Assembly: GCA_032871835.1 (NCBI GenBank)
Contig: CM065303.1
Span: 22,198,001 to 22,262,000, forward strand
Reading direction: 5' to 3'
Source of the DNA: Dipteronia dyeriana
Taxonomy: Eukaryota > Streptophyta > Magnoliopsida > Sapindales > Sapindaceae
Length of the DNA: 64,000 nucleotides
Shown: in pieces, positions 5,737-56,884 of the stretch
Numbering within the stretch: position 1 is the stretch's first letter
Layout of the letters: every line of letters starts with the position of its first letter
Position numbers and translations under genes: made by a program
Notes under the pieces: generated by a model
Seen by the model: only the letters and a program-made list of their open reading frames with translations
Database searches by the model: none
Told to the model about the DNA's origin: nothing

Positions 5737-6222
5737 GTTGCCGAGTGTTGTATTAAACTGGCTGATGTTCGGGTAACTTAACCAAGTATCATATTAAACC
5801 GGTTATTACCCGAATGACTTCAATTGCCAAGTGTCTTATTAAACTGGCTTCTTCGAGGTTCGGGTAACTTAACCAAGTGTCTTATTAAACCGGTTGTTAC
5901 CCGAATGACTTCAATTGCCAAGTATCTTATTAAACTGGCTTCTTCGATGTTCGGGTAACATAACCGAGTATCTTATTAAACCGGTTGTTACCCGAATGAC
6001 TTCAATTGCCAAGTATCTTATTAAACTGGCTTCTTCGATGTTCGGGTAACTTAACCGAGTATCTTATTAAACCGGTTGTTACACGAATGACTTCAATTGC
6101 TAAGTATCTTATTAAACTGGCTTCTTCGATGTTCGGGTAACTTAACCAAGTATCTTATTAAACCGGTTGTTACCCGAATGACTTCAATTGCCAAGTATCT
6201 TATTAAACTTGCTCTTTATTAT
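5737..6222 (+). repeat. Tandem repeat, 91-bp unit, about five copies
   Basis: The string TTCGGGTAAC recurs at 5,768, 5,859, 5,950, 6,041 and 6,132, an exact 91-bp spacing. Each unit holds two related half-units: TTATTAAACCGGTTGTTACCC, and TTATTAAACTGGCTTCTTCG. A partial unit precedes the first. The array lies inside the gypsy derivative just after the antisense frame. Confidence 0.9.
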
Positions 6223-20133: not shown

Positions 20134-20450
20134 ACTGTCTCCCGTCAAAGATGGGAAACCTTCTTGCCTTAATAAAGGTTATATATACAAAAGTCAGAAT
20201 TCCAAGACTTCCAATATGAACACATGATTATTAATTACTTGAAAAAACTTGGCTTCTATATCGATTGATATATTCAATTAAACGTGTCAAGTGTTTTATC
20301 AAAAGACTTTTAATTTTATTTATAAGAATATCTAAAGACTTGTTTTTTGGAATTATATATATATATATATATATCAATGTGAAAACATTAACATCGTATG
20401 TGAAGTAAATTTAATGGGTTTCTTTTAAAGACAATTTAAATTTAGTTTAT
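20134..20450. other. AT-rich spacer
   Basis: About 320 bp with a (TA)n run near 20,356 and nothing recognisable as a gene. Confidence 0.5.
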
Positions 20451-20813
20451 TGTGGGTGTATCGGTTTAGGGAATATACATAATCAAACACACAAGAAAAA
20501 AGAAAATAAAAGGGCACACGATTTTACGTTGTTCAACGTAAACCTACGTCCACGGAACGCACATACACTCAACTTCCACTATGAAATCAGTGTTTACAAT
20601 ATTGAAGCAATATCTCTCTCTTTACGACTCTCAATATTCTTTTCTCTCCTCTCTTTTCAGCACACACTACACACAAGAATTACAGGAGTATTTATAATAA
20701 GGTCTAGCCTAAAGATAATAGGAATCATTTCCTAAATAAACCTATAAAACACTCCTAAATAGAATAGAGAACCAATCCTAAACATAATAGGATTCAGGCT
20801 TCACAACCCAACA
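20451..20813 (-). repeat. 3' LTR of copia C
   Basis: On plus it runs TGTGGGTGTATCGG...AACCCAACA; on minus it starts TGTTGGGTTGTG and ends CCCACA. The same sequence, inverted, occurs at 25,566-25,926. Confidence 0.9.
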
Positions 20814-20905
20814 ATCTCCCACTTGAAGACTAAAACTAAAGTATACTTCTTCCTTCTTCCTCGATGACTAGTGGACATGTACGGTGCGCTCTTCCTCCTC
20901 TGTCT

Positions 20906-23900
20906 TCAACCTTGAAGACCTACTGAAGCTGTGCACAGCTTCAGTTTCTCCGTAGTGTCTGACTTGGTTAACATATCAGTTAGATTCGTACTCCCTGGGA
21001 TATTCACAAGCTTTAACACTTCATCGTCGATTAGCGACCAAATGAAATGATACCGTAATCCTATATGCTTGGTCCTAGAATGAAACACTGAATTCTTGGC
21101 CAAGTATATCGCACTCTGACTATCACTGTGCAAAACATTTATCACTTGCTCGAATCCCAACCCTGCTAACAACCCTTGTAACTATATAAGCTCCTTGCTA
21201 GCTTCTGTCACAGCCACATACTCTGTTTCAGTTGTAGATATTGTCACTATCTTCTGCAACTGAGAAACCCAACTAATAGCGGTACTCCTCATTGTGAACA
21301 CATATCCAGTGGTGCTTCTCTTGTGATCCACCTCTCCAGTAAAATCATATTCCACATAACCTTTTAGCTTGAGTTTATCTCTCTTGAAGGTTAGACACTT
21401 CTCTATCGTACCCCGCATATACCTTAGGATCCACTTTACTGCTTCCCAGTGTTGCTTGTCTAGATTAGACATGTATATGCTCGCAACTTCCACCGCATGG
21501 GAAATATCTGGTCTAGTGCAAACCATGGAGTACATCAGGCTTCCAATGGTTGAGGCATATGGTACTTTAGCCATGAAGTCTTTTTCTTCGTTCGTCTCTG
21601 AACACTGTTCATTGGACAATCTGAAGTGACTAGCTAGTGGTGTTTTGACCAACTTTGCATCACCCATGTTAAATCTCTGTAACACCTTACGACCATACTC
21701 TACATGAGAAAGCTGTAAAGTACCCATCTGTTCATCTCTGATAATCCTCATTCCAAGAATCTGCTTTGCTGTACTTAAGTCCTTCATCTCGAACTCACTC
21801 GATAGTTGCTTATTCAAGTTGTTAATCTCTTCCAAATTTGCACCAGCTACTAACATGTCATTGACATAAAGTAGCAATATTATGAAACTCGATTTGACTT
21901 TCTTGAAGTAGCAACAATGGTCAGCATTACATCTAAAGTAGCCATTATGTTGCATAAACCCATCAACCTTTTTGTACCACTGTCGGGGAGCTTGTTTCAA
22001 ACCATACAAACTCTTCATCAATCTGCAAACCATCTTTTCTCTGCCATGTTTCGTAAACCCCTCTGGTTGCTGCATGTATATCTCTTCCTCTAAGTCTCCA
22101 TGAAGAAAGTCAGTCTTCACATCCAACTGCTCAAGATATAATTCATTTGCTGTGACAATGCTCAACACTAACCGGATCGCAGTTAGTTTAACAACAGGAG
22201 AAAAAATATCGGTGTAATCAATACCTTCATTTTGCTGAAAGCCTTTGACCACCAGTCTCGCCTTGTATCTCTTTGAACCATCATGTTCCTCCTTGATTCG
22301 AAACATCCACTTGTTCTATATGGCTTTCTTTTCTTCAATCAACTCGGTTAACTCCCAAGTTTGATTGGACACAAGCGACTTCATCTCCTCCTTCATTGTA
22401 AGCTCACATTTGCTTGCATCTTCACCCTGGCATGCCTCATCATAGCATTCAGGTTCTCTCGCATCTGTTAGCAACAAGTAATGCAAGTACCTTCTATTTG
22501 GTACATGTGGGCGAGTGGATCTTTACGGTGTACCTTTGGCCTGTGGGGATCTTCTCAAAGCATTCCCAAATTATGGATTTAGAACACTCTGACCGATCAG
22601 ACTCTGTGATACTGGAACTTCATTTTATGGTAAAAGATTTTCAACTTGGAGTTACACACCTTGCTCTTCAACTTTACCACCTGATACATCCTCTGGCCCA
22701 AAGTAGTTTGGCTCTTCCTGCTCAAACATATGTATGTTTCTGTCCTTGTACATGATCTTCTCGTTGAAGACAACATCTCTACTCCTAATCATCTTCCGAT
22801 TTAAATCATCCCAGAGTTTATAACCAAACTCGTCTTCACCATAACCTACCAAGGTGCACTTCACTGATTTGGTGTCTAACTTGCTCATTGAGTGAACACC
22901 TGCATGTACATAAGAAACACAACCAAACACCTTCAAATGAGAAAGTTTTACCTCTTTCCCAGTCCAGATCTCTTCTGGTAAGCGAGGTCCAAAGGATTTG
23001 ATGGTCCTCTATTGATCAAGTATACTGATGTATTGACTGCTTCTGCCCAGAATTGCTTCGGCAACCCTGATTGTCGGTGCATGCTTCTGGCTCTCTCAGT
23101 CATTGTCTTGTTCATCTGTTCTGCTATACCATTCTGCTACGGCATTCTAGGAACCGTCCGTACGAGCTTTATCCCACTATTGTAGCAAAACTTCATGAAC
23201 TCGTTGTATTCATATTCACCACCATTATCTGAATGCAGCTTCTTGATCTCTAAACCTGTCTCGTTATCAACCATAGCTTTCCACTTCTTGAAAGCCTCAA
23301 ACACATCAGACTTGTGTCGTAAGAAGTAAACCCGTACCTTTCTGGAATGATCATCGATGAATGTGATGAAATACTGTTTACCCTCGTTTGATGAGACTGA
23401 AGCTGGACCACAAACATCGGTGTGCACTAGTTCCAGCTTCTCTTTTGCTGGTGCTCTTTCGGTCCTCTTGAAGTTTACTCGCTTATGCTTTCCAAGAATA
23501 AAACTCTCACAGAAATCAATCTCAACGGATTTTAACCCTAACAGTTTACCTCTTGAATGCAGACACTTCAGCCCTTGATTACTCATGTGTCCAAACCTCT
23601 GGTGCCACAGATTCAGATTCTCTCTACCCTCCACCACTGCGGCCAAACCATACCCATCGGTAGTTGTGTAAAGAAACCCGTTCATAGTTCCTCGGGCGAT
23701 TGTCATAGCTCCTTTCGAGATCTTCCACTTATCACCTATGAAAGTCGTCACATAACCATCTGACGCTAACTGCCTTATGGAGATCAAGTTCTTCCTCAAG
23801 TCCGGTACTTGCCTCACGTTGTCGAGTTTCCAAATTGACCCATTCAGATGAATCTTCACATCTCTCTTCCCGATAATGTCGCATGCTTGATCGTTACCAA

Positions 23901-24917
23901 GATACACATTACCTAAATTTACGGAGACGTAGTTCTCTAACAAATCCCTATGTGAGGTGGCATGAAATGACGCCCCTGAGTCTAACACCCAAGATTCCGT
24001 CTTACTTTCTAATGAGCAGATAAGGCAGTCATCTGACTCCTCTGAAATACAATTCGCACCGCTCTTGCCATCATCTTTCTTGGTGGACCTACACTCACTC
24101 GAGTAGTGACCCATCTTGCCACAATTCTGGCACTCAATGTCTTTCTTACTTCGCTACTGATTACTCAAATTGTTGCCCTGACGATTCCTGGACTTGGATC
24201 TTTCTCTTGACTTGATCTACCCCGTTGATTTGTGTTCCGATTCTTGTTTCTGCCTTCTCTACCTTCCATGTTCAGTGCTGAAGATGATGCCCATGATCCC
24301 TCTTCACGCATCTTGATCTCTTGGGTCATAATCATGTCTACGACCTGTTGGAATGCTAGCTTTTCTTTTCTGAATGAGTTGGCAATTGATTGGCATGTCG
24401 TACTTCAATTCTCTGGCATCTGGCCAAGAATTATGCTTGCCAACACCTCATCATCGAATACAATGGAAACCAAATTTAACCCAACTGTTACCTCGTTGAA
24501 CACATTCAGGTGCTCTTTAAAACTCTGATTTTCTGACACCTTCAGATTCACTAGCTTCTTTAACAGATGGACATTCCTTGCTGCTGAAGGTTGATCATAT
24601 AAATTCGATAGGGCCTTCATGAGATCTGTCGTTGTCTTTTGACCCTTGATGGTGAAGGCAACTGATTTCGACAATCTGAGTCGAATTGCTCCCAACGCTT
24701 TACGATCCAAAACCGTCCATTCTGCATCGGTCATGTCTTTTGGCTTATGTTGGACCATCCATTCTTCTTTATACATGCCCTTCGGCTTCTCTACTATCGG
24801 TAGATACAAGTCCATCTGGTACATATAATCTTCCATTTGTATTTTTCTAAAGCTGAAATTCGTATCGTTGAATTTCTCAATCTTGTATGTATCCTTCTCG
24901 GACCCCATTGCTCCCAC
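20906..24917 (-). pseudogene. Copia C gag-pol, frameshifted
   Basis: Reading on minus from ATG 24,917: gag (170 codons to 24,405) has the copia gag core, ending VLASIILGQMPEN. After a frame break, 24,114-23,137 holds the second half of a zinc knuckle (MGHYSSEC), the protease active site (SWVLDSGASFHATSHRD), the GAG-pre-integrase domain (LNLWHQRFGHMSNQGLKCL) and integrase (HTDVCGPASV, FIDDHSRKVRVYF, LHSDNGGEYE). The integrase C-terminal part is at 22,936-22,652 (KVFGCVSYVHAG). RT is an intact 374-codon frame at 22,306-21,182 with LLLYVNDMLVAGAN, so the usual first Asp of YVDD is Asn. RNase H continues to 20,906 (NSVFHSRTKHIGLRYHF). At least four breaks make it non-functional. Confidence 0.92.
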
Positions 24918-25526: not shown

Positions 25527-25564
25527 TGTGGGTGTATCGGCTTAGGGAATATGCACAATCAAAA
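25527..25564 (-). repeat. 38-bp remnant of copia C 5' LTR
   Basis: TGTGGGTGTATCGGCTTAGG and the following bases match the first 38 bp of 20,451-20,813 in the same orientation, then stop abruptly at an inverted LTR. Confidence 0.85.
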
Positions 25565-25565
25565 T

Positions 25566-25926
25566 TGTTGGGTTGTGAAGCCTGAATCTTATTATGTTTA
25601 GGATTAGTTCTCTATTCTATTTAGGAGTGTTTTATTGGTTTATTTAAGAAATGATTCCTTATAACTTTAGGCTATACATTATTATAAATACTCCTGTAAT
25701 TCTTGTGTGTAGTGTGCTGAAAAGAGAGGAGATAAAAGAATATTGAGAGTCGTAAAAAGAGAGATATTGATTCACTATTATAATCACTGATTTCATAGTA
25801 GAAGTTGAGTACAGGTGCGCTCCGTGGACGTAGACTTACGTTGAACCACGTAAAGTCTCGTGTCCTTTTATTTAGTTTTTTCTTGTGTGTTTGATTGTGC
25901 ATATTTCCTAAGCCGATACACTTACA
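25566..25926 (+). repeat. Full copia C LTR, inverted orientation
   Basis: The 361-bp sequence starts TGTTGGGTTGTG on plus and ends CGATACACTTACA, the reverse complement of 20,451-20,813 over its whole length. No primer site, purine tract or 5-bp duplication flanks it. Confidence 0.88.
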
Positions 25927-26121
25927 ACATAGTGAAATTTAACAATTATGCTTGGTTGACACAAACTTAATTAAGATAATTTTTTACACGACCAACAATT
26001 GAATGCGCACGTCACACGAAAATTAAGGTTTTAAGTTTTATTTGATAAAAAAACGATAAGACAAAACAAATAGTCACTCCTCATTTAAATATAATTTACT
26101 ATACTGATTACTTTCTTTAAA

Positions 26122-26232
26122 GTGAAAATGGTGAGATATGTCACCTTTTTTAAGGTGTGTTGTGATGATGTCGCCCATTTAATAACTTAAGTTTAAAAGG
26201 CACCTATTATGGTGAATTGTCCAAATTGCCCC
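26122..26232 (+). repeat. Left terminal inverted repeat of the MULE
   Basis: Begins GTGAAAATGGTGAGATATG and contains TAACTTAAGTTTAAAAGGCACC. The last motif pairs with TAATATAAGTTTAAAATGCACC on the opposite strand at the right end. Identity is moderate, with small gaps. Confidence 0.75.
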
Positions 26233-26545
26233 TAAACTTTAATTTTTTAAAAGCAACTTTCTGGACTCGTTGGTATCTCCCCAAAAAACTTGTCTGAAAA
26301 ACTTGACTCTATCTCTAAAAAAGTTGTCTCTCTCCAGGTTCTGCAGTAGAAGGTAACAAATATTTATGATCTTTACTTAAATTTCTTTTATGCATTTCAG
26401 ATATTTTACATTCATTTCTGTGTGGGTTAACAATGTATCCATTCATCGATAACAATGTATCCATTTCAGATTCTGCACTAGAATGTATGAAAAAAGGAAA
26501 ACATCCGTGCTTTTTTCTTGTGTCACCGAGAATGTTTAAAGATGA

Positions 26546-27305
26546 ATCGAGCTTATTTTGTATTGGAACGAGCTTTTGTTTAGTTTGAAAAAAGCTCGAT
26601 TATTTGAAAAAAATGCTCGACAAAAAAATGCTCGATCCCTTAGGAAAAGTTCTCGATCCCTGGACAAAAGTTCTCGAACCGTTATAAAAGTTCTCTATAA
26701 TTTGACAAATAATCTTGATCCCTTAAAAAAATTCTCGATCCCTTAAAAAATTTCTCGATCCCTTAGAAAAAGTTATCGGTCCCTTAGAAAATGTTCTCGA
26801 TCCCTTAGAAAAAGTTCTCGATCACTTAGAAAATGTTCTCGATCCCTTAGAAAAAGTTCTCGATCACTTGATAAAAGTTCTCGATCCCTTGATAAAAGTT
26901 CTCGATCTCTTGATAAAAGTTATTGATCATTTGACAAATATTCTCAAACCCTTAAAAAATTTCTCGAACCGTTAGAAATGTTCTCGATCCCTTATTAAAA
27001 GTTCTCGTTCCCTTATTAAAAGTTCTCTATCCCTTGATAAAAGTTCTCGATAATTTGACAAATATTCTCGATAAAAGTTCTCGAATCGAACCGTTATGAA
27101 AGTTCTCGATCCGTTGTAAATTATTCTCGAACCCTTGAAAAAGTTCTCGATCCCTTAAAAAAAGTACTTGATCCATTTGAAAAAAGCTCGATCACTTAGA
27201 AAATGTTCTCGATCCCTTTCTAAAAAGTTCGATCTGTTTGCAAATGTTGTCGATCCATTACAAATGAAGCTCGATTCCGAAGAACATGTCGTTGATCCGT
27301 TACAG
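26546..27305 (+). repeat. Left 21-bp repeat array (CTCGATC core)
   Basis: Some 30 imperfect copies of GTTCTCGATCCCTTAGAAAAA in 21-bp register lie between the left terminus and the transposase start. Variation is mostly in the TTAGAAAAA half; CTCGATC is well kept. Open frames through it are repeat artefacts. Confidence 0.9.
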
Positions 27306-27393
27306 TTGAGAAATTTTTGTAATTCTTAGTACTTGTAAAAGTAATTTTTTTTATTTGTTAATAATTGTTTGTGATGATGATTTTCACAGGACA

Positions 27394-30081
27394 ATGGATA
27401 GGGTTAGATTAGTAATATCATACAACAATCGATAGGAGCAATTACCTTATGGAAGTCATAGGTTTCTTGGTTCCGATAACCAAAGAATGTATGTGTCCAG
27501 AAATATGACTTACGAAGAGCTGGTGTCGATCGTACAAACCGTTGTGAAGTACGATGTGAACAAATACATTGTTGATCTACAATCTATATCAATCGTTCCC
27601 GGGATAACATGTCGCACATTTATAAGAAATGACTACGATGTTTTGTTTATGCTAGGGGAAGATAGGGTGATCCCTCAAGTATGTGTCAGTTTAATTGAGA
27701 GGGTTGCAGGAGGTGTCATAGGTGAAGAAATCACTCCTCATGATAACACCCAACATTTTCGATCTTCAGGTGAAAGCAACCAGTTGTTCACAGAAAGAAG
27801 TGGGATTGATGGTAGGGAAAACCTATGCGGTGTCCCACCGGAAGTAGCCGACCATGGTGATATAGTTGAAGCTCAATTGGAAGATGATTTCGGTTGTCAT
27901 ATTAAAATGAATGTTGGCCAGTAAAACCACCAATACAATGACATGAACAATGAGCGGAATAATGAACCTCATAACTTACCAATCCATGAGGTGGCTAATG
28001 AGCCAAATTTACATCCGGTACATAATGTAGCGAACAATGAGGAAGATGAAGAACCGTTTGAAAGGGAAAGACGTGCAAAACTTGTACACAGATGTAGTTC
28101 CACTGCAGTACATATAGCTGGGACATCTGAGGTCCGGCCTGATGTAACTCAATTCTAAGAATGCCAGAACATGGGTTATTCCAGGAGCAGAATCATACTT
28201 GTTTGGTATGGGTGGAAGCAGGAACTTGGTAGAAGATGAACCTACCAGCATGATATATAAAGGTTAATTTTTTCCTACTAAAAAGGATTTGAAGAGATTG
28301 GCTGGGCATTTTGCAATGCGGCACAACTTCGAGTGGAAGGTGAAAAGATCGAATAAGACAATATTACATCTGGTTTGTTTGATGGACAACTGTACGTGGA
28401 AGTTAAGAGCGGTTAGGAGAGATGAAGCGACATACTTTCAAGTAAGAAGTTTTATCAACGAACACACTTATCCGTTGGAGGAGATTCACCGCTGCAATCG
28501 ACAAGCTAGTGCAGTCATAATTGGAGAGATGGTTGCACCTAGATTGCAACAACAAGATGGTAGACTAATGCGTCCGAAGGACATAATCATCGACATGAAA
28601 ACAATGTATGGCATCCAAATAATGTACAGTAAGGCACATCAAGCCCTTGATTATGCATTGTCACTGACTTATGGAACGCATGAGGAAAGATTACTGACTT
28701 ACAGTGCGATGAAAATGGTAAATTCCTATACTTTTTCATTTTGTTAGGTGCCTCAGTCAGAGGATTCCAGAGGTGTATGCGTCCAGTTATTGCCGTTGAT
28801 GGTACCCATTTAAAGGGTAGATTTAGGGGCACAATGTTTGTTGCAACTGCACAATATGGGAATGAACAGGTTTATCCAATTGCTTTTGGGTACGGTGACT
28901 CGGAAGACAACCTATCATGGGAGTGGTTTTTGGATTGCTTGAAAGGTGCCCTCAGCCATATAGATGATTTGGTTTTCATTTCTGATCGACATGCAAGCAT
29001 TGAAGTAGGGATTTCTAAAATGTTCCCTTATGCCACCCATACCATATGTTGCTGGCACTTTTATAAAAATATTAAGAAGCGATGTCATAGAAAGGATGTT
29101 GCCGCAATAATGGACAAAGCAGTCCGAGCGTACACCGAGTTGCAATATAACCGGCACACGGAAGAGTTACGAAACTTGCACCCGAATGCATATGAATATG
29201 TAATTGATACCGGTCCACAGAAGTGGTCCCATGTACACTGCCCCTATAGAAGGTATAGGGTCATGACAACAAATGTCGCAGAATGCATACACTCATGCCT
29301 TAAATTTACACGGCAACTGCCTATATTGACTTTGGCAGAGTTCATTAGGAATATGCTACAACGTTGGTTTCACGATCGCTATAGGGCTGCACAATCCATG
29401 CGTCATCAGTTGACTGACGCAACATATATTGTGATCCTCAAACGTGTTGATAAGTGTAATTTTATGATAGTTAATCTAGTTGACTGGAACATATTCTCGG
29501 TGAAGCGGGTTGGCAAACAGTGGACTGTTGACTTAGCCCGGAAGACCTGCACATGCAACAAATTCCAAATGGACCTTCTTCCATGTTCTCACGCTCTCGC
29601 TGCCGCAAGGTACATCATACAATTTTGTGTACAGTTAATATTACTTAAACGTGAATCCTAACGTTTTCAATGTTTTTACAGGGACCGAAACATGGATTTC
29701 ACATCTCTCTGTGCGGACTACTACAAGCGACAAACACTTATTGATGCCTACTCGGTTCCTATTATACCGGTTGGACATCCTTCCACTTGGATTGTGTCAT
29801 CTGACATCGCTGAGAGAGTCGTTTTGAATCCAAGCTCCAGGAGACAAGCAGGCCGACCGAGGGCTTCACGCCGTATCTCGTCTTCGGAGGGAACAACAAC
29901 ACAGAATTGTAGACGATGTCGACAACCAGGGCATAATTCGAGGAGATGTTCTAACCCAGCTTTGACTAATGAAGGTCCGAGCACAGTTATTCTAGAGGAA
30001 TACAGACGCAAGTGTAGTATCTGTCATACAATTGGTCACAACAGACAAACATGCCCTACTAGAGACTCCACCGTGGAGTGA
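27394..30081 (+). pseudogene. MULE transposase, mudrA-like, with disabling mutations
   Basis: The reading starts at ATG 27,394, just after a splice-like TTTTCACAG. An N-terminal region (MTYEELVSIVQTV) is followed by a MuDR DNA-binding domain (28,289 on: RLAGHFAMRHNFEWKV). The DDE domain from 28,744 shows Asp in VIAVDGTHLKG (28,798), Asp in FISDRHASI (28,984) and Glu in TTNVAECIHS (29,281). A SWIM finger (CTCNKFQMDLLPCSHAL) ends at a 72-bp intron, 29,610-29,681 (GTACAT...TTACAG). The last exon carries two CX2CX4HX4C knuckles (CRRCRQPGHNSRRC, CSICHTIGHNRQTC). Breaks: in-frame TAG 27,433, TAA 27,922, a frameshift near 28,155, TAA 28,265, and a frameshift with probable small deletion near 28,720. 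It would cut and paste its own element if intact. Confidence 0.92.
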
Positions 30082-30374
30082 TTTGAGGCGTTATCATGAT
30101 GACATTGTGATAATTTGAACTCGTATGACTTGTTCATTAACTAAAATGCAATTGTATTTAAATTTTATTTGAGACTGAAATGCAATTGTATTTAAATATG
30201 ATTTGTATATATATAAATGTAAACATTTTTATACAAAATAATTGGTAAATATACAAAAGAATTGGGACATATACAAAACAATTGGTACATATACAAAAGA
30301 ATTTGTTAATTTACAAAATAATTTGTACATATACAAAACAATTGGTACGTATACAAACGAATAACTACATAAAT
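30082..30374. repeat. Spacer between convergent MULE genes with a roughly 22-bp repeat
   Basis: From about 30,228 to 30,363 the motif ACATATACAAAACAATTGGT recurs six times with variants at about 20-22-bp spacing. It lies between the two 3' gene ends and may hold both polyadenylation regions. Confidence 0.7.
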
Positions 30375-31739
30375 CTAAACAGGCCAGAAGTTTCTAAATA
30401 TTTCAACGGCCATCTTCTCCTGAATGATCCCCATATCGTCTTCCGACCAATCAAAATCCTTTTTGTCCGTCAGTAAGTACTCGATCAATCTCAATGTGTG
30501 GGGACCACAGTTACCCCTGCAGTTGGACACATTAAAAAGTGTTAATAAAATATTAGGTTTATAATAATACAATCTTAAAGTTACTATTACGAAATGTCTT
30601 ACGATTTCTTCTGCTAAGGGACATGTTTTTCCGACATCAAAGGGCTTACTTGTCTTCTCAAATTTCTGAAGTCCAGCCGGTTGTGCAGTATGAAACCCAG
30701 CCTGATGCAACATCGAGAGCACAAAGTAGCACAACGGGGCTACCTACTGCTTCCGGATATGAGCTGGGACCTTCTGTCTCCAGGGGTTGACTATGAACAT
30801 CTTCCAGCATGTGAGGTCCACAGTCACCAGTAGCCAATGTTGCCGCCCAATGTTGTACGGTATCAGGACCTGTAAACGTAAATAGCAGGTGTTAGGATGT
30901 ACAAAGACAACTATATATACAATTGCAAACCATGTCAATTAACACTTACCATGTCAACCTCGTGCCTCAGACGGCATCCATTTGAGGCACCCCCAAGCAC
31001 CGTCGTAAGGTCGACATCCTTCCAGCACGACCTCAAAAGATTCCAACGCCTCGAGGTGATTTGCCCGGGAGAATCACGAGACATCATTTTCCTATACTGG
31101 TGCTCTAGAAAGGACTGTAGAAACAAAAACTCAAAGTTATTACTGTTTTCCATACAAATGTACAAGCATGCGTAATCATTACTAATTTCAATACTTACAA
31201 AAAATTGCAAGTTCAATATGTTGACCATCTGACTATACACATTCGGGAAAGCCCGTTGACGCTTCCGAAGAATATGGAGGTACGCGTCCATATGCTAGGA
31301 ATATAAACACGTAAAGATATGTTAGGAGACTTACATATCTAAAACAAATACTATAAACAGAATTTACGGTACGGTCCCGTGTACCTCATCATTTACATCC
31401 GTGAAGTTGGTCTGCAACCGATGGAACCATGCAGCATCAACCGGTGCAAGCAAATCAAGATCACGTCTGCATTAATGTTCCATCAGCTACACATTTATAT
31501 AATGCATTAGAAGAAAAACTGCCACCTAAATAACAAAGAAATTTACTTACAGCTCCCCATTTACGTTATTCTTGAAGGCTCGATAAACCTTCAACTGGTC
31601 ACCATCCACCAGTCCCTGAGGATTAAATACGTGCTTAGGTCCCTCTAGTATTACCCTCGCCCTCTTAGGTCGGCACAGATCAGTGTACCCCTTCAGTACA
31701 CGCCTCTGCTGTTGAACTCCCCCCGTCGGGGTATGCTGA

Positions 31740-32170
31740 GATGAAGACGGAGGAGGGGAGCCTGCTGCTAGAGGGAAGGTGGTGGATGAGGCGCATGCTC
31801 TTCGCTCTGAGGGGGATGGGAGGCGGCTGTTAGAGGGAAGGTGAAGGGGGCGCCTGGTCATGGCTCCGAGGGGGATGAGGGGCCTGCTCCTTGCTCGAAG
31901 GTGGAGGTGGATGTGGAGGTGGAGGTGGAGGGGGAGTCTGTTGCTCGTTCGTCAGTGGAGGGGAAGGGGGAGCCTGCTGCTGGGTCGTCGGTGGAGGGGG
32001 AGCCTGCTGCTCACTCCGAGATTGAGGGGGAGCCTACGAAATGCTATGAGCAAGATGGGGGGTCGGCTGCTCGCTAGAAGGTGGAGAGGGAGCCTACTGC
32101 TCGCTCCGAGGTGGAGGGGGAGCCTGTGAATCTCTATGAACGAGAGGGGGGCTGCTGCTCGCTAGGGGGG
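31740..32170 (-). repeat. GC-rich minisatellite coding a Pro/Gln-rich linker
   Basis: Units such as GGTGGAGGGGGAGCCTGCTG and CTCGCTCCGAG repeat at about 30-36-bp spacing. On minus, in the gene's direction, they give CTCCCCCTCC-type codons for Pro-Pro-Pro and Gln-Gln. The composition is far more GC-rich than the rest of the window. Confidence 0.8.
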
Positions 32171-33914
32171 AGAGGGGGAGACTGAGCCCCACTCTCCAGA
32201 TCTGCCCCTCCGGTATGTGGATATTATGTATGCTCATACATATGATGGCCTGAAGCCTTGAAAGTCCCCGATCAATGCAAGCAAATCCCTATGTTGTTGC
32301 TGTCGATCCTCTTCGCTCTTCCGGATCAACTCCAGCAACTCCCAGTACTGTTGTTGTCGATCATCCTCACTCTTTTGGAGAGCTTCACGTAACTCGTTCA
32401 ACTGTTGTTCTAAACGGGCCTGAAATCATGCAACATTGTTAATACTAAAACAATCATGTGTCCTTCGGTAAAAAAAAAACTACCATCTCAACTTACCTCC
32501 CCATCGAGTGCAACGCCTGCATGGGAATCCCCTGTATGGTCACCATTTCCTGGCGTGGTAAACCGAACCTTTCTACACCTCACTCATCGAGGAGACGGCA
32601 AAGATCCGCCAGTGTCCATGCCATTGAAATCTGGATCTGCACTTGTAGTCGGACCCTCACCCTCCTCATCGGGACGAACTACACTTGTAGTCGGATCAGG
32701 GACAATAGGAAGGTGAACCTTGTCATCCTGCACATATGGGCTCCCCACCTCACTTAGGCCTGCGAAGTACGGTGCCACCGTCTCAGCTGCTGTGAGCACG
32801 ATTTTCATCCTCACAGACATCTGAAATCGTAGTTAGATGAATGTCATTGTTACTTATAATAAGTAATATAACATACTGTTAACAAATAAATTAATTACCC
32901 TAGCACTAAAAATCTTGTCAAGCTTCTTCCCTCTGGGTTCTTTCGCCAACTCCCACTTCAACATACGAGGACAAAGGTCTGTAATCCATCGAGTCCCTAA
33001 ATCGATGCCCAGTTGGGGGATCACCTCGAAAGCAAATATCTGCATCAAAGATAAGTATAGTTATAATAAAAAAAATTGGATTAGAAATGAAATGTACATG
33101 TTGGAAATCAAATTTTTACCAAAAGAGCGTGTGATAGACCGTATATGTTGTACCCCTCCACGGAATGTCCAATATCGCCCTGTGACTGCTGGCATCTTTC
33201 CTTACGACGTCGTGGTAACGCATGCTTGAATGAAAATATAGAATGACTATAGACGTCGGCACCCCACGGGAACACATCGAAGGCATTGAGGTCCTATACC
33301 AACCGAAACTGTCAAACTGGAATCTTCAATCTCTCGTCAACCCCCATCAATATCCAGTTCAACATGTAAATGAGGCACAACCTCACAGCATCGTACACTT
33401 GTTCAAACTCTTTGCGGGTAAGAACAACCCTCAAGTCATCCAACGATACCTCATCATGTGCAGGAAAGTACTGTTGATGTATGCCATTCTCAACTGCAAC
33501 ATACATACTCGTGTCCGGTACGACTCCAAAACGTAATCCGGTGATGAGGCTAAATTCCACCTTCGAAAACCTGACCATATGGTTCCCTAACAAGAACCGT
33601 ATCTCATCTGTCGGCCCGTCATGGTCCAACTCCTACAACAACAACTGATGAATAACACCACCCGAAAACTTCAGCTCCCGGTGCATCGACATGAAATGCC
33701 CAAAACAGAAGGCTATGAACCGACGCTGATCCTCAACAGCAAACTCTTCAGGGACCCGGTTAAGTGCATCGTCTATACGGGCGAGGGCTTCAAAATGGTC
33801 GTGTCGGGTCAATTTTCCCTTGAACCAATATCCCTCTGGAGTTTTAAGCAATTCCTTCAAACTGTTTGTCATCTGCAATGTCATAGAAACAATACATCAG
33901 CAAACTGTAAAAAA

Positions 33915-34845
33915 AAAAAATATATTCTCGATCGTTTGAAATAAAATCTTGATACTTTGAAAATATTTTCAATCCTTTGTAAAAGTTCTCGATCCCTTAC
34001 AAAAGTTCTCGATCCTTTCAAAAAGGTCTCGATCCTTTGAAAAACCTCTCGATCCTTTGAAAAACCTCTCGATCCTTTGAAAAACCTCTCGATTCATTGA
34101 AAATTCTTCTCGATCATATTATAAAATCTCTACCCTTTCAAAAACATTATCGATCGTTTATAAACATTCTCGATCCTTTGAAAAACCTGTCGATGCTTTG
34201 AAAAATCTTCTCGATCATTTTAAAAAATCTTGACCCTTTCAAAAACATTCTCGATCGTTAAAAAAAATTATCGATCCTTTGAAAATAGTCTCGATCTTTT
34301 GAAAAACCTCTCGATTCTTTGAAAAATCTTTTCGATCATTTTATAAAATCTGGACCCTCTCAAAAACATTCTCGATCGTTTGAAAAAATTCTCGATCCTT
34401 TCAAAATTGTCTCGATACTTTTAAAAACTCTCGATTCTATGATAAATCTTCTCGATTCGATAAAAAATCTTCTCTTCTCGATTATTTTAAAAAATCTTGA
34501 TCATTTGAAAAACATTCTCGATCGTTACAAAAATATTCTTGATCGTTTTAAAAAATTCTCGATCCATTGAAAAAAGTCTCGATCCTTTAAAAATCCTCTC
34601 GATTTTTTAAAAAATCTTCTCGATCATTTAACAAAAGCTCGATCACTTTGAAAAACATTCTCGATCGTTTAAAACAATTTCTCAATCCTTTAAAAATATT
34701 CTCCATACTTTTAAAATGTTCTCGATCCTTTGAGAAATAATCTCTATCGTATGAAAAATTTTCTCGAATCTTTCAATAAAATTTTCTCGATTTCTCTTGA
34801 AATATTCTCGATTTTTTTTTAAAAAAAAAAAATGCTCGATACCAC
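33915..34845 (+). repeat. Right 21-bp repeat array inside intron 1 of the Ulp1-like gene
   Basis: About 40 imperfect copies of CTCTCGATCCTTTGAAAAAC in 21-bp register. The array reads in the same strand direction as the left array, not inverted. It lies wholly between the exon 1 donor (35,011) and the exon 2 acceptor (33,873). Confidence 0.9.
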
Positions 34846-35164
34846 AATTTCGTCTTCGTCATAACATATTCAATCTCATTTCAAACCAAAACCAAAACCA
34901 AAACCACAACAATTGTAAACCCTAATCTATAATTTCATTCAACAGAACAAGTCTAAAATGCAATGATAAGTTATCAACAACAAATCGATAAATAAAACAA
35001 ACTGAACTTACCTCTGTCAATCGTTGCGAAATGTACTGTATTCCCGTTCCGGTCAATAAGTTGTCGATTTCCTCGCCGTCGATTTCGTTGTCGTCAGTTT
35101 CTTTCTCACTGTTGCTTTTCTCAAACTCACAAAACGACAACTTTTTCTCTTTTTCAATTTTATC

Positions 35165-35273
35165 GGGGTATTCTCGTCTCTTTACGTTAAATGGTGCATT
35201 TTAAACTTATATTACTAAACTGGTGATATTTGTACAACACCCCCTCTGAAATAGTGCCATTTATTTTTCGAGC
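35165..35273 (-). repeat. Right terminal inverted repeat of the MULE
   Basis: The reverse complement contains AAATGGCACT, GGGTGTTGTACAAATATC and AAGTTTAAAATGCACC, matching the left terminus in order. It ends 25 bp from the Ulp1-like start codon, so the terminus may supply its promoter. Confidence 0.75.
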
Positions 35274-35284
35274 CTTTCTTTAAA

Positions 35285-37227
35285 AATACCCCATATATTT
35301 TCTTAAAATAAAATTAAAAAATACCCATTAATATATTTATAAAAGTAGTTATATATATATATATATTGTTTATTTATTTATATATATTTTTCTTAATTTT
35401 TTTAGGATGAATATTAACCAAATAAACTCAAACCCAAACTCCTCTCACCCTACCCTAGGTAAGCTTTTATTCGACAATAAAAAACTTTACCGAGTAATTA
35501 AGTTATCTAATATATATATATATAGTACTAAAAGCTGTCTTAAATATATTATGTAACTCCAAAATCAAGAAAATGTGAAAATGGTTGCCATTTTAATCTT
35601 GGCTTCTTCTATTAATATTATTCTATTTGCTATCTTCATATACAATTCAACGTATTGTTCGTGATGGGACAAATCTATCAGTCAAGTTGCATGTTTATTG
35701 TCCCAGAAGCACTAAAGTGAAAAGTCTTTCATTTACTATTAAATAAGTCCCCAAAGTTCTGCTTACCGTAAGTTAAATTGAAGCTTCACCAATTTGTAAA
35801 TCGTAATCAGTCGAGAAGATTCTTTTAAATAAGAAAATAAATAAATAATTGTGCCAGGCATTTCAATATGATTAGACAGCTTTTGACTTTTTCATAATTG
35901 ATTACTTATAATATAGAAAGAGGAATGCCATATATCATATGTAAAATCTCTATATTCTATCACAAATAGGGGTTAAGGTATTAATTTATGAATAGATGCA
36001 TATCGATAATAATTTATTTTATTTATCTTTATATTTATTAATAAATTGATATATAAATTACTATATTTATTATAAAAAAAATTACTTTTTATAAATGACT
36101 GTTTCAAGTTTCAACCCATGCTAACCCTTAATATATCATTATCAGTTATAACAATCAATCTTATTATAAATTCTGGAAGGTTTATTTGGACCTGTCAAAA
36201 CCAATCATCATACACCACATTTGAGGTATGTATGTTTATTTCTATAATGGATAGGTATATTATCACATAATATTGGAGAGAAATCTCCCTCACATATACT
36301 TATAAATTATAATGATGGAACTCAAATTCATGGTTGCACAAATTTAAATGATATATAAGTTCGAAAATTTATTATATTGAAAATATGAGTTATTGTAGTA
36401 GTCATAACACTTACAAAATAAAAAAAGTATTAGCTCATGAATGCATGGTTACACGAACAGAATATTTAATATTTCTGAAATCTTGTACATATCAAACACA
36501 TTATTTTAAATGTACAGATCATCCATGTGAATATGTCAAATACAATTTCAGTCAGAAATATTTAATTTAATTTTGTCTATTAAATTTTTATATCATCGAA
36601 CTTGAATATTTATTAATAATTGAAATTTGTCATAAACCTTTCTTATGGGCAGGGGCTCTACTTTTTTTTTATATATAAAAAAATTCATATTAAAAATATG
36701 AATTTGTTACTAAATTTTAAATATTTTTCACTTTTCTCCCTCCCCAACTTGAATTTCTAGTTCCAATCTTACTTATGGGACAAATATATATATGGGAATT
36801 AAAAAAATGTTGGTATAATTAGCTCCCATATTCAAACAAAAATAATCAAAAAAATAAATGAATAATCAAATCAATGGATGCATTCTCGTCACGAGGAGCT
36901 CCAAGTCATGATATGACGACAACAAGTGAACAACATTTGAATATTAAACGACCTAGAAAATGTACGAATCAACCAGAGACTAAAGGAAACATCCACAAGA
37001 ATGGACTGCTTTCGAACCATAAGAACTCTTGATTGATCAATACCCTCGGAGGGTGCATAAAAAAATATCATTTCAGTCGTATGCAAAACGGCACTCGTCA
37101 TGATAAGCAAAACAAATAATGCCACTCACAACCAAGACACCAAGTAACAACACCATAATTAACGGTACAGAAGACAGCTTATAGAAGTGTTCAAGCTGGT
37201 AACTAATGACAAGTTTGTACTCATTCT
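35285..37227. other. AT-rich spacer without recognisable gene
   Basis: About 1.9 kb, very AT-rich, with (TA)n runs near 35,350 and 35,510. An open segment on minus at 36,889-37,125 is hydrophobic in its first 25 residues but resembles no family I know and has no supported neighbours. Confidence 0.45.
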
Positions 37228-37763
37228 TGTAGAATTTGATTAACATTAACACTGAATTTTACATGCATAGGCACATAATTCATCCAAAAATTTGACCTAA
37301 ACATGTTTCCATATCATACTTTAATCAAACCCTAAATACATGTTACTAACCCATGTCAATTCATGAGAAATGAGAGATAAGAGAAAATGGAAGCGTACCT
37401 GAATCTATAATCAGAGGTTGGTGGACGGATTGAGATCTTCCAAATTATCACAATCCTTGGAACATAAAAATATTTTCTCTTTTTCTGGTGATGGGGATAC
37501 AGACAAGCCACAAGTATCGTATAATTTGGGGACCATAACCCTAAATATAATAATTAGATTATTACATGTTTTGCTACTTCTAATTCGGCCCCTTATCAGA
37601 TTAGAAATAACACTTTGTTATCTACACATTAACTCCATAACAATTATACCCTTAAGCTTTAACACTTTAACTCTTAATTATACCACTTTAATTTAGACTT
37701 AACCAAAGATAACATAACACATTTAATATTTACATGTGTGGCCCCACATGATGGAATTTTTCA
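37228..37763 (-). repeat. 3' LTR of copia D
   Basis: Runs TGTAGAATTTGATTAAC...GGAATTTTTCA on plus, with TG/CA ends. It is about 90% similar to 49,629-50,158. The purine tract CCCAGTGGGAGATCG (minus) follows at 37,764-37,779. Confidence 0.9.
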
Positions 37764-37779
37764 ACGATCTCCCACTGGG

Positions 37780-40168: not shown

Positions 40169-41942
40169 TGATCGTGCCAAAAATACCATACATTTTGGCT
40201 CTCAATTCCATATCCTTTATCTTGTTTTCGAGCATATTTCGGTGTATAATGACTCGTTTTATAGTGATTGCAGGCATTCAATGGATTACAGATGCTGGAG
40301 GTGGAAATGGGATTTTCAAGCGCAAACGAGCATAATTTGTCAAGGAAAGGGACCTAGTGTGCAGGTCAATGCACAGGTTTTGACCCATGCACCACTAGCG
40401 CACAACCATCGCATGTACCAGTCCACCGGGATGAAAAATCTTACATCAGTGGACTATGCGGGTACATACCCACGCACTGCGCGTTCTAAATCAATACCTG
40501 ACATGTTTTCAAGTGTTTTCAAGTATTTTCATAAGGGTAAAGTTGTCAAATCATGTCTATTTCGTACCTTAGCCTCTCAAACCTATAAATACATCACTTT
40601 TTCTACAAGACTGATATCATCTAATCTATTGATTCATCCAATTAATCCTATTCAAATTATAGAATCTTCTTCACCAAATTAAGAGAGCGAGGAGCTTCTA
40701 AGGGCATCCATAAAGGTTTTCCTCCATGGATGCCTCATCACCATCACCTTCTACCTTCACCCAGTCATCTTTAGAAGAGATTCAATAGGAAAGAGCACCC
40801 TACATTATCTATGAGTAGAAGGAGCTTCAATAGAGCTTGGAGATTTGAGATTACAATTGGGCACCTATCCGAGCCTAGAGATCCGAGAGTAGCACCTTAG
40901 GTTTCTTATATTTACTCTCCTCATTTTTTTTCTTCTTTGATGTGTATCCCCATTTGGAAATATGTAAACCCTAATATTAGTTCCATTTATTTGATTGACT
41001 TGTATTTGATTTCTTCTTTTATTGTCCCATTCAATTTGCACTTAATTGATTCTTGACTTGTATTGAGTAGGATTGACAACCCAACACTTGATGCATGTTT
41101 AGGGATAGCTCTTGTCTTTACATTCATGGCATGTAGAGTTGAAACTGATATGTGTTTATGATTGAGATTTTGAGTAGATTAATGTAATTTAGGATTGGAT
41201 TAATTAAGCATCCCTTGATTGCTCATATGTCGATGGATTATTTGAAATGCATGTTTTGGATTGGCTTGAACACTATTATTTGTTTGGGTGGAATTCATGA
41301 AGAGCATATATCTGTCTTTGTGGGTTTCGGTTCTATGAACCTATATGCTTACATGACCCTTGAGTGTTGCTCGCATGATACATCTTGGTGAGTAGCACTT
41401 GGGTTGCCACTCTTGGTCATCTCTCGCACGATACATCTCGATAAGTGGCGTTAGATGACTAGTCAACTCTCTCATTACCATATCTAGAGGTCATACTAAA
41501 GGCTAGGTTGAACCCAATATAAGAGTGTCTTTGCGGTTAGTTATTTTAGGTGGCAAGAATATTTTGAGTTGTCATGAGTACCATATGTATCCATTCTCTT
41601 GCATCTCTCCTATCCATCCGTTTTTGTTTATCACTGTAATCACCATCCTCGTCCCCCCCATGTTCTCTTATCTTTCTTATCTTACTTTAATAATATTTGT
41701 TTCCCTCACGCACATACAACATGTTACACTTCACACACACCACTCTCACCCTTGCCATGTTCTTATATACATTGCTTTCAATAATCACTAAAATGTGAGA
41801 CAATCGACCGACAACACCTCTCCGTGGACGATACCATCGCTTACCGCTTAACTAGTTTTCAAAACTATAATTGCACATTGCGTATGAACAAAATTATAAA
41901 TATCTTTTGAATTTGCGTTTTCTTACCGACGAAAAAAGCGCA
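40169..41942 (+). repeat. 5' LTR of the large derivative
   Basis: The 1,774-bp LTR is about 85-90% similar to the right copy, with shared blocks such as CTTGACTTGTATTGAGTAGG and CACACACCACTCTCACCCTT. Open frames inside it are not conserved between the two copies. Confidence 0.9.
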
Positions 41943-45407: not shown

Positions 45408-47250
45408 TGATCGTGCCAAAAATGTCATACATTTTGGCCCTCAATTCCATATCATTTTGCTTGTTTTCGAGCATATTTTGGTGTCTAATAGCTCATTTTA
45501 TAGTGATTGCAGGCATTAAATGTATTACAGGTGTTGGAGGTGAAAACTGGGATTTTCATATGTAAATGAGCATTATTTATCCAGGAAATGGGCCTAGTGT
45601 GTGGGTCAATGAGTGGGTCTTTACCCGCGTACCACTAACGAATAACCAGCGCATGTACTAGCGCACCGAGATGAAGAATCTAACATCAGTGGACTACACG
45701 GGTAACAGCGAGGGTACATCCCTGCGCATTACCCGAGCATTGTGTGTTCCAGCTCAGCACCAGACATGTTTTCAAGTATCTTCAGAAGAACATAGTCATC
45801 CAATCACGCCTATTTCGTACCCTAGCTTCTCTAGCCTATAAATAAATCACTTTTACCACAAGACCGATATCATATAATCTATTGGTTCATTAAATTAATC
45901 CAATTCAAATCCTAGAATCTTCTTCACCAAATTATGAGAGAGAGAGAGAGAGAGAAAGGAGCTTCCAAAGGCATCCATGGAGGTTTTCCTCCATGAATGC
46001 CTCATCACCATCACTTAGCCATCTTTGGAGGAGATCAAGAGGAAAGACCGCCCTACCTTGTCTATGAGGAGGATGAGCTTCAATAGAGCTTGGAGATCAG
46101 AGAAGACAATTGGGCACCTCCCGAGCCTAGAGATCCGAGAGTAACACCTTAGGTTTCTTCTATTTACTCTTCTCTTGTTATTTTCTTCTCTGATGTGTAT
46201 CCCTATTAGGGATATATGTAAACCCTTATACTAGTTCCATTTATTTGATTGACTTGTATTTGATTTCTTTAATTGTTCCATTCAATTTGCACTTAATTAA
46301 TTCTTGACTTGTATTGAGTAGGATTAACAACCCAATACTTGATGCATATTTAGGGATAACTCTTGTCTTTACATTCATGGCATGTAGATTTGAAATTGAT
46401 GTGTGTTTATGATTGGGATTAGGAGTAGATTAATGTAATATAGGAGTAGATTAATTAAGCATTCTTTGATTGCTCATATGTCGATAAATTATACGAAATG
46501 CATGTTTTGGATTGGCTTGAGTATTATTGTTTGTTTGGGTGGAATTCATGAAGAGCATACATCTGCCTTTGAGGGTTTTGGTTCTATGAACCTATACGCT
46601 TACTCGACCCTTAAGTGTTGCTCGCACGATACATCTCGGTGAGTAGCACTTGGATTGCCACTATTGGTCATCGCTCGTACGATAATGAGTAGTGGTCAAG
46701 GGTCCCCTATTATGCTTAAACACATTCCTTAGTAGTTTCTCACGCAACACATCTTGATGAGTGGCTTTAAAGGACTAGTCAACTCTCTCACTGTAATATC
46801 TAGAGGTCGTACTAAAGGCTAGGTTGAACCCTATATATGAGTGTCTTTGCGGTTAGTTATTTTAGGTTGCGCGAATATTTTGGTTTGTCATGAGTACCAT
46901 ATGTATCCATTCTCTTGCATCTCTCATATCCACCCTTTTACGTTTATCACTCTGATCACTATCCCCACCCTCTCATGTTCTCTTATCTTTCCTGTTTGAC
47001 TTTCATGTTATTTCTTTCTCTCACGCACATACAACATGTTACACTTCACACACACCACCCTCACCCTTGCCATGCTCTTATTTACATTATAATCACTAAA
47101 ACGAGAGACAATCGACAGATAACACCTCCCTATGGACTATACCCTCATTTACCGTTTTACTAGTTTTCAAAACTATAAGAGCACATTGCGTAGGAACAAA
47201 ATTATAAATATCTTTTGAATTCACAATTTCTTAAAAATGAAAAAAACACA
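45408..47250 (+). repeat. 3' LTR of the large derivative
   Basis: The 1,843-bp copy of 40,169-41,942 has a (GA)n run at about 45,938-45,956 and a short insertion near 46,690. Right of it, copia D sequence resumes with the codons for the GAG-pre-integrase/integrase junction. Confidence 0.9.
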
Positions 47251-49626: not shown

Positions 49627-49628
49627 AT

Positions 49629-50158
49629 TGTAGAATTTGATTAACACTGAATCTAACATGCATAGGCACATAATTCACCTAAAATTTTGACCTAAACATG
49701 TTTCTATATCATGCTTTAATCAAACCTTACATACATGTTACTAACCCATGTCAATTCAAGAGAAATGAGAGATAAGTTAAAGCAAAAACGTACTTGAATC
49801 CATTGCCGAAGGTTGGTGGACGGGTTAAGATCTATAAAATTATCACGATCCTTGAGACACAATATTGTTCTCTCTTGTTCTAGTGAAGGGGATACAGACA
49901 AGCCAAAAGTATCGTGTAATTTGGGGACTATAACCCTAAATATAATAATCAGATTATTACATGTTTTGTTATTTCTAATTCTGCCCCTCATCAAATTAGA
50001 AATAACACTTTGGTATCTACACATTAACTCCATGACAATTATACCCTTAAGCGTTAAAACTTTAATTGTTAATTAGACCACTATAATTTAGGTTTTACCA
50101 AAGATAACACAACACATTTAATATTTATATGTGTGACCCCACATGATGGAATTTTTCA
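49629..50158 (-). repeat. 5' LTR of copia D
   Basis: The 530-bp LTR runs TGTAGAATTTG...GAATTTTTCA, the partner of 37,228-37,763, with the same internal landmarks (GTTGGTGGACGG, GGGGATACAGACAAGCC). Confidence 0.9.
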
Positions 50159-50170
50159 ATAATTCTTAAG

Positions 50171-55256: not shown

Positions 55257-56745
55257 TGTAAGTTCATCGGTGTTTGATTGGCTTATTTCGTTGACAACCA
55301 CATTCGGGGATCAATATGTAAGGGTAGTTTAGGGCTTCATTGTTCTTAACCAAGCTCAAGCATCAAAGGTAAAATCACTTGCTTAACTTTTACTGAAGAG
55401 GTATTAGTGCACACAGACACTCATGCATTTTCTTTTAATTATCTTGCTTGCATGCTTATTTGCCATTTTGAGTGACTTGGTTGTCTTGTTTTTGTTTATG
55501 TGTTGAATGCATTTTTGTGCCTTAAAAAGAGGAGTTTCTTTCTCTGTTCCGCTGCTTAGACCGCTCTCTGTACAGTGCCTAAGTCGCGGTCTGCACAGCA
55601 GTGTTTACCAGAGGCTACACGCTGTGGCTACCGCGGTCTGTGCATGTTGCATGCACCGCGGTCTCCTAAGCGGAGTTTCTTAAGCGTTGCATGCTGTCTA
55701 GACCGCGGTCTGTGCACCTTCATGGACAGCGGCCTACAGAGCGGCGTTGTCCAGGCGATGCACCGCTCTCTGTGCCATGGTAGGGATTTGGTTGCCTTTC
55801 TTTCAAAACAACGCCACTTTGTGTAGGGCACCATATGTATATGTTCTTTTCTCTTCTCTTTTGTTCTTAAGAGTCCATGAAACAATTTTTGTTTGTTCCA
55901 GCTTTTCTAGAGAGAGAGGGACTCCCAAACACTCATTTTTACTCAACCCAACTTCATCTCATGATCATCTAGCTTCATTCTAGGATTATTCAAGCATGGA
56001 GCATCATCTTCTTCTTGACTAGGTAACTTCTACATGCTCTGGACTTCATAGTTTCATTACAAAGACATGTATACCTAGGGTTTTAGTCTCTATTGCTTAT
56101 TAAATGCTTGCTTGTATGGTTAATTGCTTTTATGACATGCTTATGTATTGATTGTTGGTTGAGATGCATTAATTTGTGATAGCTAGAATTTAGGATGGAT
56201 TTACCCTTCTAGCTAATTCTTCTTGCCTTTGTATTTAGAACATTGATATCTAGGATTTGCTTCAATTGTCATTATTAATCCTAGATAAGCATGAATGTCT
56301 TGAACTAGAATTTTTGCATATAGAATATTCTTGCATATTCTCCTAGGTTGCCATTATCTCTTCATTGTTGGTTAAGCTTGTGGCTATGTGATTAGTGCAC
56401 AAAGTTGGTGATCCAAAATCACTTTTAAGGCTCGTTGGGTAGAGTGAAAGGGTTAGTAATTGAAGGGTTAGACGGGAGGTCAACCTAAGTTGTAAACTTT
56501 CTCTCAATAGTGGATTTTGAGGATCGAGTATAGCGCACTGAACAGCCCGTGGTTTTTCCCATTTTAAGGGCTTCCACGTATATATTGCGTGTTGTTACTG
56601 TTTTATGTTTGTTGCCTCTTGCTTGAACACTTAGTAGAATGGGGTAAATCAATAATATTGATTAATTCACAAAATTGATAATCTATCGAATTAAAATCTA
56701 TTCACCCCCCTTCTAGGTTATAGACACACTTTCTAGGGAATTTCA
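55257..56745 (+). repeat. 5' LTR of the Sirevirus
   Basis: Starts TGTAAGTTCATCGG and ends GGGAATTTCA. It includes a CG-rich palindromic cluster at 55,555-55,780 and CTAGGGTTTTAGTCTC near 56,075. The left flank ACAAC would be one half of the target duplication; the other half is outside the window. Confidence 0.92.
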
Positions 56746-56747
56746 AT

Positions 56748-56765
56748 TGGTATCAGAGCCGGTGC
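56748..56765 (+). promoter_or_regulatory. Primer-binding site of the Sirevirus
   Basis: TGGTATCAGAGCCGGTGC, matching the 3' end of initiator tRNA-Met, two bases after the LTR. Confidence 0.92.
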
Positions 56766-56884
56766 CTAGATATACTTAGATGATCTGTGCATTTTGTGTG
56801 TCTTACCTTGTGCATTTTGGTTGTTTGCATTTTGTGTGTTGCATTACATTTCCATCTTCATATCATTTATTACCTTTAAACACT

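Follow-up and report, generated by a model that had tools for sequence, protein, structure and literature searches.

Some plant Mutator-like elements (MULEs) carry a gene with a Ulp1 protease domain, and the locus described here raises the question of whether such a gene is cargo or part of the transposon's own equipment. The window analysed is a 64,000-nucleotide stretch of the Dipteronia dyeriana (Sapindaceae) genome (GenBank assembly GCA_032871835.1, contig CM065303.1, positions 22,198,001 to 22,262,000 of the forward strand), and all coordinates given below are positions within it. A single MULE spans 26122-35273, with a transposase gene on the plus strand and, convergent with it on the minus strand, a gene encoding DUF1985 and Ulp1 domains. 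Both genes are broken, and the locus is an inactivated (dead) DNA transposon. Its main feature, overlooked in a preliminary description made from the letters and open reading frames, is a pair of tandem arrays with units of 20 or 21 bp, one before the start of each gene. We consider it probable that the locus is an inactivated Sapindaceae (Acer/Dipteronia-like) MULE that carried its own VANC/Kaonashi-type protein and, ahead of both genes, target arrays which that protein would have bound and demethylated.

Two arrays of one word

The two arrays share the consensus TTCTCGATCCYTTRAAAAAA and comprise about 38 and 44 units; their period, about 20.4-20.6 bp, is close to two turns of the helix (Table 1). 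Mean unit spacing by chaining is 20.35 bp in the left array and 20.47 bp in the right, and Tandem Repeats Finder counts 29 and 43 units, respectively. The unit consensus is nearly identical between the arrays, which lie about 6.6 kb apart and share 68-76% similarity by blastn. The window has 27 copies of the 9-mer TTCTCGATC, every one within the two arrays and on the plus strand (100 shuffles gave a mean of 0.44 and a maximum of 3), and it holds no copy of the reverse word, GATCGAGA. The shorter form CTCGAT is found 60 times in the window: 49 times in the arrays, twice elsewhere in the element, and nine times outside it. Splice signals suggest that each array lies within a 5' leader intron of its gene.

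Similar pairs of the word were sought elsewhere. Two copies of TTCTCGATC at array spacing were found in 53 stretches of viral contigs, with a single match in every listed stretch, and in at least 118 stretches of bacterial or archaeal contigs, with a single match in each of the 80 listed; because each listed stretch holds a single match, these look like chance occurrences and not arrays. A simple pattern search for translated arrays found none in 239 proteins.

Repeats of this kind could have served the transposase itself. Subterminal transposase-binding repeats occur in several plant DNA transposons, and the arrays resemble such repeats in having one common unit and in their similar distances from the element ends (the first and last CTCGAT lie 473 and 438 bp in); the DUF1985-Ulp1 gene would then act elsewhere. 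The arrays are, however, co-oriented, and GATCGAGA is missing, whereas symmetrically used ends would be expected to carry the word in inverted form. They are also 0.8-0.9 kb long and stand directly ahead of the two genes, and we regard this role as quite unlikely.

The arrays could also be plain minisatellites, generated neutrally by slippage in non-coding DNA, with the DUF1985-Ulp1 gene as cargo of unknown use, as the preliminary description had supposed. Arrays of this sort form readily; the spacer between the two gene ends holds a third one, built on an unrelated 20-bp unit, and tandem repeats are present in the coding sequence as well. This origin nevertheless appears unlikely to us: one word recurs in two arrays far apart in the element; unit positions 4 and 7 are constant at 89-100%, whereas constancy drops to 41-53% at some spacer positions (a contrast that word-based chaining favours); and the layout is akin to that of VANC targets as described in PMC5735166.

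The element and its two broken genes

The boundaries of the element are sharply defined. It is flanked by an 11-bp target-site duplication (TSD), CTTTCTTTAAA, identical at 11/11 positions; the two junctions are the sole sites of this 11-mer in the window, and none of 200,000 random pairs of 11-mers drawn from the window was identical. MULEs typically produce TSDs of about 8-11 bp. Aligned as inverted repeats, the 120-bp ends show 79 identities, 31 mismatches and 10 gaps (score 71), compared with best scores of 40 (left end) and 44 (right end) among 3,146 control windows per end, and over 220 bp the terminal inverted repeat (TIR) alignment scored 74, with 47 as the highest score in 300 shuffles. 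Together with the TSD, three domains above their cut-offs identify a MULE: the MuDR DNA-binding domain DBD_Tnp_Mut (PF03108; 26 bits, cut-off 25), MULE (PF10551; 69.6 bits) and SWIM (PF04434; 32 bits).

By comparison with four relatives, the transposase gene contains premature stops at 27433-27435, 27922-27924 and 28265-28267. Its frame is broken near 28150 and again near 28688, where about 17 residues present in the relatives are missing. The downstream open piece includes the motifs VDGTHL (28795), ISDRHA (28978) and NVAECI (29272), which we take to hold the DDE residues. A protein search with the transposase returned 208 matches; among the best 120, identity reaches 86%, and 111 bear Acer or Dipteronia names, 2 are from Tripterygium, and 7 are without a name.

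Nine coding exons were assigned to the DUF1985-Ulp1 gene, with junctions picked by splice signals. Seven of the eight junctions are consistent with the sequences of relatives, and the eighth falls at a broken frame. At least five stops interrupt the gene, at 33633, 33312, 33294, 32584 and 30744, and the frame is lost both in the proline-rich exon 32419-31551 and in exon 30869-30603, near the end, where an alternative frame reads SEKHVP*QKKS in place of the SETRIPQQKKS of the relative P0202. The DUF1985 portion shares up to 90% identity with its relatives. The Ulp1 domain (Peptidase_C48) scored 15.7 bits on the raw open reading frame (cut-off 20.7) and 58.3 bits (E 1.3e-15) after the exons were joined; among relatives, P0196 scored 77.4 bits and P0203 68.5 bits. 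A profile of 39 relatives (A1) matches the solved structures of SENP1, SENP2, SENP5 and Ulp1 (nine chains, best E 1.2e-4). In the window copy the catalytic His (codon 30839) and Cys (codon 30509) are retained, and the Asp position is occupied by Asn (codon 30788), giving IVNPW as opposed to IVDPW in P0202 and LMDPF in P0196. Seven of the ten aligned relatives (P0196-P0200, P0202 and P0203) keep His, Asp, Gln and Cys alike; the exceptions are P0204, which lacks the Gln stretch, P0208, with an altered Cys motif, and P0201, which lacks the domain.

The preliminary description had reported a full-length MULE with an 11-bp direct repeat at both ends, diverged inverted termini, a SWIM-bearing transposase, and DUF1985 and Ulp1 motifs on the opposite strand, and the controls and domain scores above uphold each of these. 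It had also called the element complete in length and, for its intact boundaries and full gene arrangement, a good reference copy; completeness holds for the boundaries and the gene layout but not for the genes, since the frames of both are broken.

The DUF1985-Ulp1 protein and known anti-silencing systems

According to published work, a short word is bound by VANC proteins; VANC21 has its targets in tandem repeats that lie ahead of VANA21 and within VANC21 and VANB21 introns, and the variable regions of VANC proteins contain tandem peptide repeats (PMC5735166). VANC genes bearing Ulp1, known as KIU, are described in a 2026 review as recognizing motifs in KIU-carrying VANDALs and causing their hypomethylation, with the role of Ulp1 in them given as unknown (PMC13317346). 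The gene described here is linked to the VANC anti-silencing proteins by its predicted DUF1985 domain: PF09331 scores 105.3 bits on a VANC21 segment, 74.9 bits on P0196 and 47.4 bits on the window copy, and a second profile of the family (A2) matches the VANC21 segment with 95.6% probability (E 1.3e-8). Searched against solved structures, P0196, an Acer protein, gave two matches, one to SENP2 through its Ulp1 part (E 0.0079) and one to VANC21 (9lnj/9lnk) through DUF1985 (residues 57-265, E 0.022).

The pairing of the two genes recurs in D. dyeriana. One predicted protein of this species, P0204, runs from its Ulp1 end into an antisense transposase tail that matches the minus strand of 29748-30023 in the window (68% identity over 47 residues, E 2e-18), which places the convergent layout at a second site as well. 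Linkage was counted from the best 120 of the 208 transposase matches, with Acer negundo QYF36, Acer saccharum, Tripterygium and unnamed sources excluded. Among the 58 D. dyeriana transposase genes listed, eight have one of 84 DUF1985/Ulp1 genes no more than three locus tags away, a number attained in none of 5,000 circular shifts and none of 182 local shifts. Gene capture by MULEs is frequent (PMC2528002), and the DUF1985-Ulp1 gene might on that ground be a fragment of a host gene caught by chance, as in Pack-MULEs, and no part of the transposon's own kit. Against such an origin, which we consider very improbable, stand the second convergent site, the linkage that shifting fails to reproduce, and the fact that DUF1985 is a domain of transposon-encoded VANC proteins.

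Among known systems, the closest parallels are VANDAL21/VANC21 and VANDAL6/VANC6 of Arabidopsis, which have in common with this element a DUF1985 protein beside the transposase (PMC5735166, PMC10398659), short-word tandem arrays that precede the transposase gene and occur within introns (putative here), and a repeat-rich variable region of the protein. The element differs from them in having TIRs, in its word (TTCTCGATC, with a CG inside, compared with YAGTATTAY or AGTTGTCC/AGTTGTAC for VANC; PMC5735166, PMC10398659), and in carrying Ulp1: the VANC proteins compared in one of those papers have DUF1985 and DUF287, and Ulp goes unmentioned there. With the Kaonashi/KIU elements of Arabidopsis it shares a Ulp1 (Peptidase_C48) gene that points opposite to the transposase (PMC6117577, PMC2528002, PMC13317346), at the second D. 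dyeriana site too, and the Ulp1-bearing VANC genes of that group are said to demethylate KIU-carrying VANDALs (PMC13317346). Kaonashi MULEs are, however, described as non-TIR (PMC2528002, PMC13317346), whereas this element has diverged TIRs of about 115 bp. MULEs with Ulp1 in direct or reverse orientation are also reported from melon, rice and grapevine, in extracts of PMC2528002 that make no mention of target-like arrays.

These comparisons divide the two remaining proposals of the preliminary description. Its label "Kaonashi-type" agrees with the gene content and orientation and conflicts with the TIRs, whose alignment far exceeds its controls. Its "Ulp1-like cargo" is right as to the presence of a Ulp1 gene and undersells it, given that DUF1985 places the gene with the VANC proteins and that the target-like arrays had gone unseen. 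The element has the transposase domains and TSD of a MULE and two sequence features of VANC systems, namely a DUF1985 domain homologous to that of VANC21 and short-word tandem arrays in non-coding regions, and it lacks the non-TIR ends of Kaonashi; we therefore describe it as apparently working like a Kaonashi/VANC element and not as being a Kaonashi MULE. Biology of this kind is already known from Arabidopsis, and this element is set apart within it by its TIRs and by the CG within its word.

The VANC reading is preferred because the element follows the published VANC pattern in the genes it carries and their orientation, in where its arrays lie and in the repeats of its protein. While the element was active, the transposase would have mobilized it, and the DUF1985-Ulp1 protein, as one of the VANC/KIU kind, would have bound both TTCTCGATC arrays ahead of the two genes. 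Binding may then have removed silencing marks from the arrays and permitted expression of both genes, and the two-turn spacing of the units would line up several copies of the protein along the same side of the helix. The Ulp1 part might have stripped SUMO or some similar tag from the chromatin that the protein bound, a guess made because most relatives retain the Ulp1 catalytic residues. A more specific proposal, which we hold to be doubtful, is that a MULE lineage with TIRs evolved, in the maple family, a VANC-type system in which a methylatable central CG (CTCGATC) recurs every two turns in both leader introns, so that binding and silencing would compete there as an on/off switch and lasting hypomethylation would show as low CG decay.

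The decay of CGs bears on both readings. The ratio of CG to non-CG transitions is 0.76 in both arrays; in six repeat pairs from elsewhere in the window, two of them overlapping and one a Copia-like, LTR-like (long terminal repeat) pair, it is 1.8-4.0 in five and 0.7 in one. The arrays have CpG observed/expected values of 1.77 and 2.63, compared with 0.50-0.74 in the two genes and both flanks. The CGs of the arrays thus do not appear extra mutable, a weak trace that is compatible with arrays free of methylation.

Several observations weigh against the VANC reading. The CG comparison is weak, with few usable CG sites per repeat pair (5 to 45) and two pairs overlapping, and the array units were picked by resemblance to a CG-containing word; that choice, selection for the word, or homogenization would yield an identical ratio. 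The high CpG values of the arrays arise because the word itself contains CG, and a value of 1.57 is also found past the right array, in the last part of the element (34850-35273). In shortened form the word is not limited to the arrays (the nine CTCGAT sites, and TCTCGATC once, outside the element). The resemblance to VANC21 is low, the match from a single sequence is weak (E 0.022), and the search with profile A1 listed nine chains, all of them Ulp1/SENP and none VANC21. AlphaFold models are poor (mean pLDDT, the predicted local distance difference test score, 45.8 for P0196 and 46.0 for the DUF1985 protein P0213). Foldseek gave no match at E <= 0.001 for P0196, its top 47 rows being Ulp1/SENP-like (CE clan) proteases with E >= 1.3e-3 and low TM-scores, and no match worth naming for the low-pLDDT model of P0213; 9lnj is not among the best 50 matches listed for either, which, because the models are so poor, shows nothing. 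VANB, the third gene of VANDAL21, was not recognized between the element ends, where only two genes were identified, in a search that used no dedicated VANB model. Finally, linkage of the transposase and DUF1985/Ulp1 genes is 1 of 27 in D. sinensis and 0 of 15 in Acer negundo LWI28.

Transposon anti-silencing has been worked out in Arabidopsis, and a separate plant family would supply an independent pair of protein and word, from which one could learn how the DNA is chosen, what Ulp1 does, and whether binding is tied to methylation by a CG in the word. Long predicted relatives from Acer negundo with both domains, such as P0196 (908 aa) and P0203 (1,006 aa), offer starting material. Literature searches on periodicity in VANC anti-silencing returned one unrelated paper, and those on a DNA-binding structure of VANC21, from 2023 onwards, returned none; we do not claim that the family is unpublished. 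Work by Sasaki in 2022 (EMBO J) is said to treat domain gain and loss in the VANC systems of eudicots, motif density and helical periodicity.

Feature coordinates and neighbouring repeats

Table 1. Coordinates of the element's features within the window (slashes mark exon-intron boundaries)
Feature	Position	Strand	Basis
TSD, left copy (CTTTCTTTAAA)	26111..26121		exact match to right copy
Left TIR region	26122..26241	+	alignment to right end
Putative 5' leader intron, transposase gene (AAG/GTAACA ... TTTTCACAG/GACAATG)	26353..27388	+	predicted from splice signals
Left array, 38 units, consensus TTCTCGATCCCTTAAAAAAA	26536..27309	+	motif chaining; phase-scan period 20.6 bp
Transposase gene, broken	27394..30081	+	comparison with four relatives
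Open transposase piece with MULE domain and SWIM zinc finger	28684..29661	+	69.6 bits, 32 bits
Third short array, 6.4 copies of an unrelated 20-bp unit (TATACAAAACAATTGGTACA), between gene ends	30230..30357		same period
DUF1985-Ulp1 gene, nine coding exons, broken	30375..33872	-	splice signals and alignment of relatives
Exons of DUF1985-Ulp1 gene	33872-33120, 33039-32899, 32820-32497, 32419-31551, 31466-31385, 31294-31199, 31114-30950, 30869-30603, 30516-30375	-	
Ulp1 (Peptidase_C48) region	30375..31721	-	joined-exon domain match
Repeat-rich, proline-rich coding region, tandem repeats of ~30, 36, 62 and 90 bp, frame lost	31752..32176	-	
DUF1985 domain, open piece	33312..33632	-	47.4 bits
Putative 5' leader intron, DUF1985-Ulp1 gene (GAG/GTAAGT ... 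CATTGCAG/ATG)	33873..35011	-	predicted from splice signals
Right array, 44 units, consensus TTCTCGATCCTTTGAAAAAA, oriented as left array	33925..34825	+	motif chaining; phase-scan period 20.4 bp
Right TIR region	35154..35273	-	alignment to left end
TSD, right copy	35274..35284		exact match to left copy

Further repeats lie elsewhere in the window. Upstream, a minus-strand Copia-like element (21182-24917) is surrounded by a 380-bp inverted repeat pair of 89% identity (20436-20815 and 25564-25942) instead of direct repeats of the LTR type, and the right arm of this pair stops about 180 bp before the MULE. Downstream, a direct repeat pair of about 1.8 kb (40169-41937 and 45408-47245; 82-85% by blastn) is enclosed by an outer pair (37227-37764 and 49628-50159), and the two pairs are possibly nested elements. 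A second Copia-like element (55257-64000) has direct LTR-like repeats at 55257-56120 and 63129-64000, and at 5738-6213 units of about 90 bp, more than 90% alike, are repeated in tandem.

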